From positions 1 to 64,000 of the forward strand of contig CACILF010000005.1 in assembly GCA_902587435.1 (NCBI GenBank): a stretch of DNA of 64,000 nucleotides, given 5' to 3'. The stretch is from an uncultured Pelagibacteraceae bacterium (GTDB lineage Bacteria; Pseudomonadota; Alphaproteobacteria; Pelagibacterales; Pelagibacteraceae). The notes under the pieces are model-generated. The model saw only the letters and a program-made list of their open reading frames with translations, did no database searches and was not told the DNA's origin. The position numbers and the translations under genes were made by a program. Below, one piece after another: positions 61,351 to 64,000 of this stretch. Numbering within the stretch: the stretch's first letter is position 1; every line of letters begins with the position of its first letter.

Positions 61351-62475
61351 CTAAGAGTAATTTAGGAAGTCAACGTAAAATGTAAAAAACATTAAAGTCA
61401 TTAAAATTGTAAATCCGATTCGAAATAAAAATTCCTGGGTTTTTCTTTTAACTGGGCGCCCTAAAATTTTTTCAAAGCAAAAAAACATTATATGTCCTCC
61501 ATCTAACACTGGAATTGGAAGTAGATTAACTAAACCGAGAGAAATTGAGATGTGTGCCATTAATAAAATAAATGGTAAAATGCCTAATTTAACTACCTCT
61601 CCAGATATTTGGGCAATTCCTACAGGTCCACTTAACTGACTAATATCAGCACTAAAAGTTAGTAATTTACCTATGTGAATAAGAATATACTTGCACATAA
61701 AAATAGTATCACTAACTGCGTAAAAAATTGCTTTAGCGGGTCCTAATTTCTGAATATTTAATTGATTATTTAAAGGGGAAATATTAATTCCTATAATTCT
61801 TCTTTTCGCATTGTTTCTTTTTGAACCAATAAAGCCTTCATCTTTGATATATTTAGGTGTAACTAAAAAAGATTTTTGAACACCACCTCTATCAACAATT
61901 ATGCTAATTGTATCAGCAGTTGAAATATTAATTATTTGAGAAACATCTCTAATACTTACTATTTTATTTCCTTGAATATTAATTATTTGATCATTAACCA
62001 TCAAACCAGCTCTTTCCGCTGGACTATCCTCATTTATTTTAGAAATTACCGCGGGGGTAAAATCTTTTCCAATAAACATAGAAATCATTGAATAAATTAA
62101 AATTGCAGTTAAAAAATTAGCTAAAGGTCCACCAAAAGCGAACAGAATTTTTTGATAAATTTTCTTTGTTTGTAATAAGTATTTGCGATCTTCTGGTTTA
62201 TACTTTTTTTCAATTTCTTCCTTAGTTAGCAAATAATCTCTGCTTCCAAAAATATCAACAAATCCTCCTAAAGGGAAATAGCCTATAGACCATCGTGTTC
62301 CATGTTTATCTGTCCATCCAAATAATTCTTTGTCTAAACCTAAAAAAGGTAAACCAAATACTAAAAATCTTGTGACTTTTACTCCATATCTTCTAGCAAA
62401 ATAATAATGACCATACTCATGAATAAATACAATCATGGATATTAGAGCGATAAATGATATAATAGATAAAAACAT
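61351..62475 (-). CDS. rseP: RIP metalloprotease RseP (site-2 protease, M50)
   Basis: VFIHEYGHYYFARRYGVKV, PDZ domain, LLPIPVLDGGHIMFF. Confidence 0.93.
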   Translation of the reverse strand: MFLSIISFIALISMIVFIHEYGHYYFARRYGVKVTRFLVFGLPFLGLDKELFGWTDKHGTRWSIGYFPLGGFVDIFGSRDYLLTKEEIEKKYKPEDRKYLLQTKKIYQKILFAFGGPLANFLTAILIYSMISMFIGKDFTPAVISKINEDSPAERAGLMVNDQIINIQGNKIVSIRDVSQIINISTADTISIIVDRGGVQKSFLVTPKYIKDEGFIGSKRNNAKRRIIGINISPLNNQLNIQKLGPAKAIFYAVSDTIFMCKYILIHIGKLLTFSADISQLSGPVGIAQISGEVVKLGILPFILLMAHISISLGLVNLLPIPVLDGGHIMFFCFEKILGRPVKRKTQEFLFRIGFTILMTLMFFTFYVDFLNYS

Positions 62476-62564
62476 AATTTAATTATATTATATATTATAA
62501 AACTATAGAGATTGAAAAGTTTAATTAAATATGGTATAATATAGCAGGTAATTTGGAGTACGAT

Positions 62565-62635
62565 ATATGCAGATTATACATATACTTAAAAATTACCTCT
62601 TATTGCTTAACTAAGTATATATATAATCTGCATAT
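62565..62635. repeat. Long inverted repeat (24-nt arms, 23 of 24 complementary, 23-nt loop)
   Basis: ATATGCAGATTATACATATACTTA at 62565-62588 and TAAGTATATATATAATCTGCATAT at 62612-62635. Confidence 0.9.
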
Positions 62636-62714
62636 TAAATTGTTTCGCCTCCCTACCAACATAAGTTGGGTTCGGTATCAATGCAATTACTCTCATAAAT
62701 TTACCTTAAAATAA

Positions 62715-62768
62715 ACGTTAAGAACCTAAATACAATTTTTTAACGTATTCGGTTCAGAAAGAGGTAAA
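62715..62768 (+). promoter_or_regulatory. Candidate structured 5' leader with two mutually exclusive hairpins
   Basis: ACGTTAAGAA (62715-62724):TTTTTAACGT (62737-62746) versus GAACCTAAATAC (62722-62733):GTATTCGGTTC (62745-62755), just before GAGG RBS and ATG 62769. Confidence 0.5.
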
Positions 62769-63038
62769 ATGACTAAAAAGTTAAAAGAAATAGAACATGA
62801 AGTAACACATGATAATTTAATTCAATTATTATCATTACAAACACCAGCCGAAAGACAAAAACTATTACAAGACATAGATGGAATTCTTTGTAATATTCTT
62901 GACCTAGAAATGTCGGACCTTCCCTGGCTTAATCCTAATAAACATAAAACTGGCTGGGAAAAAATTATGAGAAATCTTAGACTTGTAATTGGCAAGCTTG
63001 AGTACGAAAGCCATAAAAAAAATAGAGTGCTTCACTAA
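62769..63038 (+). CDS. Hypothetical protein (89 aa)
   Basis: GAGG RBS at 62761; MTKKLKEIEHEVTHDNLIQLLSLQTPAERQKLLQDIDG...; no recognised domain. Confidence 0.7.
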   Translation: MTKKLKEIEHEVTHDNLIQLLSLQTPAERQKLLQDIDGILCNILDLEMSDLPWLNPNKHKTGWEKIMRNLRLVIGKLEYESHKKNRVLH

Positions 63039-63199
63039 TGGATCAGATTACAGAAATTAGAATTGAAGAAATTTTTGATGAAGAAAATGATCAACACTAC
63101 TATTGGATTTACTATTATAAAAATGAAGAAATAAAAATAATAGGAAAATCCTCAGTTAAACCAAAATGTTACAAACAAATAGCGAGGTACTTAAAATGA
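63038..63199 (+). CDS. Hypothetical acidic small protein (53 aa)
   Basis: TAATG coupling; MDQITEIRIEEIFDEENDQHYYWIYYYKNEEIKIIGKSSVKPKCYKQIARYLK; not in ORF track. Confidence 0.6.
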   Translation: MDQITEIRIEEIFDEENDQHYYWIYYYKNEEIKIIGKSSVKPKCYKQIARYLK

Positions 63200-63483
63200 G
63201 AAACTATATTAAAAATAAAATGAAAGATCGACTAACTTACTGCCATGAGTGGAAGAATTCAGTAGATATTTATTTGGCTGGTAAAGAAGTTACAAAAAAA
63301 GCTAATGAAGAATATTATAAATCAAAACCTTTACTTAAGTTAATTTTAGATATCTACTTTATACCTTATAATATGCTTAGATTTATTAGATATTTAAGAA
63401 TGGCTCATGAATATAAAAAAAACCAAGTTGAAATAAAGATTCTTATGAGAGAACTTGACGAAAAAAGAAAGTTTAAAAACTAA
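63196..63483 (+). CDS. Hypothetical basic protein (95 aa)
   Basis: ATGA overlap with preceding ORF; MRNYIKNKMKDRLTYCHEWKNSVDIYLAGKEVTKK...; start reset to 63196. Confidence 0.65.
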   Translation: MRNYIKNKMKDRLTYCHEWKNSVDIYLAGKEVTKKANEEYYKSKPLLKLILDIYFIPYNMLRFIRYLRMAHEYKKNQVEIKILMRELDEKRKFKN

Positions 63484-63485
63484 AA

Positions 63486-64000
63486 ATGGGCAGTAAAAGT
63501 TATAAGCTTACCAAGTCTAAAATTGCTAGCGGATTACAATGTAAAAAAAAACTTTGGTTTGATATTCACGAACCATTAAAAAAAACTAAAAAAGCTTTAT
63601 TTGAAAGAGGAGAACGTTTCAACGAAGTAATTAGAAAACATTATACCAATCTTCATGGTAATGAATTGAATTTAGAAGGTGTTTGGGATGATTTAGTAAA
63701 TAAAACAAAAAATGCAATAAATTCAAAAAATATTAATGTAATTTATGAAGCTACTTTTGAACATTTAGATACTCGTGTAAGAACAGATGTTTTGATACGT
63801 AAAAAAAACGGATGGGAACTCTTAGAAGCTAAATCATCTACAAGATTAAAAGATGAACATATACCTGATATATCTATTCAGTCTTTTATAGTTAGGGAAT
63901 GTCTAAAACAAATTGGTCACAATTTAATTAGTTGTAAATTAATTCATATTAACAAAGATTTTACTTTAGAAAATACTGAGGATTATACAGATTTGATAAA
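63486..64000 (+). CDS. DUF2779-like / Cas4-like PD-(D/E)XK nuclease family protein, N-terminal fragment
   Basis: MGSKSYKLTKSKIASGLQCKKKLWFDIHEP...ALFERGERFNEVIRKHY...RTDVLIRKKNGWELLEAKSST; runs off the right edge. Confidence 0.7.
   Translation, partial: MGSKSYKLTKSKIASGLQCKKKLWFDIHEPLKKTKKALFERGERFNEVIRKHYTNLHGNELNLEGVWDDLVNKTKNAINSKNINVIYEATFEHLDTRVRTDVLIRKKNGWELLEAKSSTRLKDEHIPDISIQSFIVRECLKQIGHNLISCKLIHINKDFTLENTEDYTDLI

Follow-up and report, generated by a model that had tools for sequence, protein, structure and literature searches.

A non-coding spacer of 293 bases (62476-62768) separates the starts of two divergent ORFs in the window, i.e. the whole stretch of 64,000 nucleotides analysed here, which comes from a SAR11 (Pelagibacter) genome. 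The upstream divergent gene, starting at 62475, encodes an rseP-type protease. The spacer carries a long inverted repeat, and the question that it raises is what this element does: the first-pass annotation had offered a functional RNA (riboswitch, sRNA or leader) or a mobile-element/att-type site. Our analysis leaves little doubt that the region is a functional structured leader RNA. As judged from sequence comparison, we put at roughly three in four the probability that this leader switches translation of the gene behind it, gene A, through competing loop pairings.

The inverted repeat, hereafter hairpin P1, lies exactly where it was first placed (62565-62588/62612-62635), with arms of 24 nt each, 1 mismatch (96% complementary) and a loop of 23 nt. 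That it is the longest inverted repeat of the window is borne out, since the next independent one has 16-nt arms; in Markov-randomised windows (n=40), inverted-repeat arms reached at most 18 nt versus the 24 nt observed. The second, 9-bp helix described together with it is also real: AGGTAATTT at 62546-62554 is perfectly paired with AAATTACCT at 62590-62598 in the P1 loop, with p ~0.02 against shuffled loops for the window copy alone. On either strand, none of 200 shuffles folds as well as the leader region (z -4.8 and -4.9). The original observation is correct and above chance.

Two features of the spacer had been overlooked. A promoter on the + strand ends at 62540, 5 nt before 62546, and the transcript therefore probably begins with the 5' strand of the second helix. 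In addition, loop positions 62593-62601 are perfectly complementary over 9 nt to 62759-62767 in the Shine-Dalgarno (SD) sequence of gene A (p ~0.01). Since the loop sites 62590-62598 and 62593-62601 overlap, the 5' end and the SD exclude each other as partners of this loop segment; the SD, in turn, can also pair with the anti-SD at 62700-62706. The three pairings of the window copy considered here, those of the 5' end, the SD and the anti-SD, have energies of -7.6, -10.2 and -7.3 kcal/mol, and such comparable values fit what a switch needs. The 6-bp match 62606-62611/62717-62722, found by reading the sequence, is weak in the window copy (-3.3 kcal/mol); its GUUAAG strand lies where most relatives have the downstream strand of the pseudoknot, 44-57 nt before gene A. 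The features are collected in Table 1.

Table 1. Features of the leader and of the genes behind it, in window coordinates.
Feature	Position	Strand	Remarks
sigma-70 type promoter, TTGAAA-17-TATAAT, extended TG	62512..62540	+	11/12 consensus matches
5'-terminal element AGGUAAUUU, predicted transcript start	62546..62554	+	pairs with loop (PK5); mimics gene A SD
P1 5' arm	62565..62588	+	inverted-repeat search; compensatory change at 12/20 aligned pairs
P1 loop	62589..62611	+	sites 62590-62598 (for 5' end), 62593-62601 (for SD), 62606-62611 (for 62717-62722)
P1 3' arm	62612..62635	+	inverted-repeat search; compensatory changes
Middle domain	62638..62688	+	predicted fold: AATTG/CAATT (62638-62642/62684-62688) around hairpin CCAAC/GTTGG (62656-62660/62665-62669)
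anti-SD UUUACCU	62700..62706	+	pairs with SD AGGUAAA 62762-62768
GUUAAG, downstream element	62717..62722	+	46 nt before gene A start; 6 bp with loop 62606-62611
Shine-Dalgarno sequence AAGAGGUAAA of gene A	62759..62768	+	competes for loop (9 bp) and 62700-62706 (7 bp)
gene A, 89 aa	62769..63038	+	unnamed family; no match in Pfam, NCBIfam or PADLOC and no confident one in PHROGs
gene B, 53 aa	63038..63199	+	conserved partner of A
gene C, 95 aa	63196..63483	+	conserved partner of A
DUF2779 nuclease-like gene, 545 aa	63486..64000, continuing past window end	+	gene start only in window

A near-twin locus in the single-cell genome Pelagibacteraceae AG-390-G09 matches the leader at 99.7%. When the leader DNA was searched against 200 relatives, the real matches were G157 and the genome of origin, the others being AT-rich noise; the same search against phages gave AT-rich noise and no real match. 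Of 399 genomes of the genus, 19 carry a homologue of gene A, as do additional genomes of the family, and the leaders in front of these homologues fall into several types. Type I (n=13) comprises the window copy, G157, L027, L058, L035, L036, L062, L039, L041, L042, L060, L040 and L070, with L036, L062, L039, L041, L042 and L060 forming type Ib. Types III (L065, L066) and IV (L063, L064) have a P1-like long hairpin and a loop:downstream pairing in different sequence. A different, conserved structured leader, type II, precedes the gene in L032, L033, L034, L037 and L038; here (GTTAATTGATTTACTWG...), too, ATCATATTAACC seems to be contested by the 5' end and a segment further on, the same logic in unrelated sequence. 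The homologues in L028, L029, L030 and L031 are without such a leader, and in L028, L030 and L031 gene A sits behind another ORF. Because all of these genomes are SAR11 and several of the leaders are closely related, the comparisons below represent a modest number of independent events.

P1 was aligned as 20 gap-free pairs in six distinct versions. Compensatory double changes are found at 12 of the 20 pairs and 91.8% of the cells pair, giving a covariation score of 0.431 versus 0.135 for shuffled alignments, with 0 of 500 shuffles as good. Sliding the register destroyed the signal, and when arms were swapped among the versions, the observed pairing was reached by 1 of 720 permutations, namely the true arrangement. 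The homologues were also examined for an absence of conservation and for pairing-breaking changes, either of which would speak against the pseudoknot proposed at first; neither was found, and both of its helices are maintained by compensatory change. Pair 9 of P1 (62576/62624) is an A-C mismatch in 10 of 11 leaders and A-U in the window copy.

The pairings of the loop were treated in the same way by permutation. Among nine diverged leaders, 1 of 20000 permutations matches the cognate loop:downstream pairings; the corresponding number for the loop:5' end pairing is 34 of 20000, weaker but significant. The downstream helix amounts to 13 bp in L039 (ATTTTACTGACCA/TGGTCAGTAAAAT), and its strands are TTGCTGACT/AGTCAGCAG in L040, TAGACCTAC/GTAGGTCTA in L065 and ATAGATGTTCTT/AAGAACATCTAT in L063. 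The distance from its downstream strand to the start of gene A is 44-57 nt in type Ib, L040, L070 and types III and IV, and 78 nt in L035. The loop sequence is fully exchanged between types, with the loop:downstream pairing persisting. PK5 pairs poorly in L070 and is missing from types III and IV. The loop sites overlap in type Ib, L035 and L040, so that the 5'-end and downstream pairings exclude each other. In most relatives the local fold of the last 75 nt places the SD in a hairpin, and an upstream-hairpin loop that pairs near the SD-sequestering structure, with covariation, is found across the nine diverged leaders. In the window copy the strong loop partner is the SD itself: this is the best partner both there and in the nearest relatives, the usual downstream position allowing no more than 6 bp, and strong loop:SD pairing is common only to the window copy and its three nearest relatives.

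A covariance model, position 1 of which corresponds to 62546, was built from seven leaders, with the window copy, L027 and L058 left out of training. It matches the window at 62546-62633 on the + strand with 35.8 bits (E 1e-4 over 344 kb), and in the whole genome of origin the window copy is its sole match (E 2.7e-4). The window copy is therefore recognised as type I, by the 5' AGGUAA element and P1, with a model derived from other members. The model also recovers L027/L045 and L058 (E 3e-7) and L065/L066 (E 0.001). For leaders matched on both strands, the sense-strand score is higher; the counts of G-U versus A-C in PK5/PK3 are unusable for assigning the strand, as the pair search admits only sense-strand pairs. 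A scan of Rfam 15 (4227 families) with the window copy and 8 related loci, proposed at first pass as a check, matched no known family at the gathering threshold and gave only sub-threshold miRNA-like noise.

The short sequence elements of the leader are also conserved. AGGT is invariant across 11 aligned leaders, and in 11 of the 12 type I leaders tested, L040 being the exception, a promoter of the same form has its -10 end 5-7 nt before AGG. UUUACCU and the SD AGGUA are found in 8 of 8 aligned leaders, and the leaders, each encoded on the same strand as gene A, extend as far as its SD. By visual comparison, the middle domain of L027 has a longer helix, AATTATATC/GATATAATT.

We propose that the leader, ~220 nt long, would form the 5' part of the mRNA of the island operon (A-B-C-nuclease) and act in cis as a translational switch. 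The RNA would begin with AGGUAA, set by the conserved promoter placement, and during transcription the 5' end would pair with the loop first. Capture of the loop by the downstream element (or the SD) would then shift the ribosome site between closed and open, so that gene A and the operon behind it would be well translated in one state only. Opening of the SD hairpin by the loop:downstream pseudoknot is probable in most relatives and has been reported for timP and repZ. In the window copy, it is more likely that the loop:SD pairing closes the ribosome site; the sign of control in this copy is uncertain because its downstream element comprises only 6 bp and it shares the strong loop:SD pairing with no more than its three nearest relatives. 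The trigger may be an antisense RNA, a phage factor, a ribosome on the leader peptide or protein A itself.

Several known leaders resemble this arrangement. In the timP mRNA of the timPR type I toxin-antitoxin system, a gene with a trapped SD is translated only once an upstream hairpin forms a pseudoknot (PMC11228461). The likeness extends to the SD in a hairpin, the far-upstream hairpin that pseudoknots with a downstream element, the mutually exclusive conformations and the covariation that backs the pseudoknot (PMC11228461). However, gene A is by its sequence not a small membrane toxin, protein A being charged and without a toxin family match where type I toxins are small and hydrophobic; no antitoxin RNA was detected, the SAR11 leader has an additional 5'-terminal element competing for the loop, and the sequences are unrelated. 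In the rep leader of I-complex plasmids, the loop of a long hairpin pairs downstream and thereby permits translation. These repB-repA / repY-repZ leaders (IncI, IncB, IncK) combine a leader peptide with the antisense RNA RNAI (PMC10286972); they share with most SAR11 relatives the loop:downstream pairing, the SD sequestration and a leader ORF overlapping the controlled gene. The SAR11 leader differs in residing in a chromosomal island with neither a replication gene nor a detected antisense RNA, and its leader ORF has no coding signature and lacks a start in the window copy; gene A, without a Pfam, NCBIfam or plasmid match, is no replication initiator gene. In hok-type toxin mRNAs, a 5'-terminal element takes part in the fold and competes with the SD-region pairing, but the 3' processing element and the toxin were not found in the SAR11 leader operon. 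The S004-repA leader of SGI1 is likewise island-borne, with a leader ORF over an SD-masking stem-loop (PMC7826253), although it controls a plasmid-type replication protein and no pseudoknot is described in that report. The leader is not a member of the timP or I-complex systems: gene A encodes neither Rep nor any toxin that could be recognised, an antisense RNA was not observed, and Rfam gave no match. From its sequence, we regard it as a new RNA family and a new variety of a known control type.

Two alternatives concern how such a leader is operated. The leader may be controlled by antisense, in the style of CopA, Inc RNA or TimR, with a small RNA, encoded opposite the leader or at another locus, binding the P1 loop and blocking the pseudoknot. 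The long loop-exposing hairpin, the downstream pseudoknot and the SD hairpin are the anatomy of such systems, and rapid loop turnover is typical of antisense-paired loops; yet no antisense promoter better than shuffled sequence was found in any leader, nor was a terminator-like site, and we hold this explanation only as a tentative possibility. It is compatible with the translational switch and would name its trigger. Coupling to a leader peptide, in which translation of a short ORF that reaches into gene A would unfold the SD hairpin, as in RepY/RepZ or SGI1 S004/repA, is doubtful. Of the 13 type I leaders, 11 have short ORFs overlapping the gene A start, for instance MLSFMRLIQKEVQ* in L027, where TGA overlaps the ATGA of gene A, and MVSKIDRFIFFELNVQEGKYEG. 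Against this, a codon test found the ORF substitutions to be mostly non-synonymous and without third-position bias, and an ATG, GTG or TTG start is missing both from the window copy and from its near-twin G157; given such non-coding-like substitutions and the missing start codon, the leader peptide is a possibility only.

The remaining alternatives would replace the leader switch altogether. A ligand-binding riboswitch would find precedent in SD-near pseudoknot leaders of SAR11 such as SAM-V (PMC2704228), but the present leader is much longer and island-borne, the regulated genes have no metabolic link, and Rfam gave no match. Moreover, little unpaired sequence is conserved beyond AGGUA, UUUACCU and the SD, and the invariant positions are those of the 5' element and the helices and not of the loop, the complete turnover of which between types disfavours a riboswitch; we consider it quite improbable. 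An independent trans-acting sRNA that precedes gene A by happenstance could account for the strong promoter of its own and the stable fold, although no terminator-like site precedes gene A, so that a free-standing sRNA is not supported; the pairing partners reach the SD of gene A, leader and gene co-occur, and the reading is very improbable. Among the functional RNAs first suggested, it is thus the structured 5' leader that stands. The least probable reading, and a far-fetched one, is a DNA site at the island edge, either an att/recombination site or an operator palindrome. The leader does lie between rseP and the island in its own genome, and recombinases bind long inverted repeats. In relatives, however, the homologous leaders lie inside islands at several chromosomal sites, immediately before gene A, with promoter position and SD kept, which argues against the mobile-element/att-type site of the first-pass annotation; helices between the loop and far partners make no sense for DNA, and the own genome (71% complete) holds a single locus, not copies at both island borders.

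The leader switch would serve a conserved A-B-C cassette whose islands occur at several chromosomal sites, that adjoining rseP being used in the window, G272 and G015. The slot after gene C is filled in relatives by PDDEXK_1, TM0106 RecB-helicase, RmuC or DUF2130 genes, the last in L055, which clusters with the DUF2130 protein of L048 (Pfam). Neighbouring island genes encode integrase, Z1, HATPase and, by eye, C5-methyltransferase-like proteins, and the island setting is defence-type; PADLOC recognised no system among the island genes of the window. The cassette with its exchangeable nuclease-like gene (window 62769-64000; L046-L057) looks like an undescribed system. Protein A is charged and predicted to be helical, in an AlphaFold model of low confidence (mean pLDDT 58). 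In L035, L065, L066 and L070 it has an extra N-terminal domain, YKSIAID.NCY.KI..L...L.PG...S.AQVVRTLV, which by eye resembles a ribbon-helix-helix DNA-binding domain; three of these were tested and had no Pfam match. Searches with proteins A, B and C in phages, plasmids and viral contigs gave no matches, the IMG/VR match L071 was rejected as a gut-phage chance match, and a second viral pattern search found none.

Other observations concern the surroundings of the cassette. At ~15010-15160 in L057, a B-C operon without gene A in front has its own promoter and a short hairpin, the loop of which contains two CCTTTCT anti-SD-like runs. HSP70-like, TerB-like and M48 protease genes adjoin the island on the window contig past 64000 (L022 4661-9660), and this cluster recurs in G272, G173 and G015. 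In L039/L048, the DNA some hundreds of bases before the leader includes a sequence (gggcctgtagctcagttggttagagcag) that resembles a tRNA gene's 5' half and is perhaps an integration scar.

A broader reading, which we regard as unlikely, is that the leaders form a dedicated RNA switch class of mobile SAR11 defence islands, sensing phage infection and activating A-B-C with interchangeable PD-(D/E)XK-type nucleases. Such sensing may proceed, for example, via translation changes, or through a phage RNA or protein. Few regulatory RNAs have been described in the streamlined genomes of SAR11, and a 220-nt leader with compensatory mutation despite sequence turnover would be a new RNA family. Several partners vying for one loop would constitute a rare natural competition. 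The leader also offers a handle on the control of an uncharacterised nuclease operon in islands with methyltransferases, Z1/ATPase genes and integrases.
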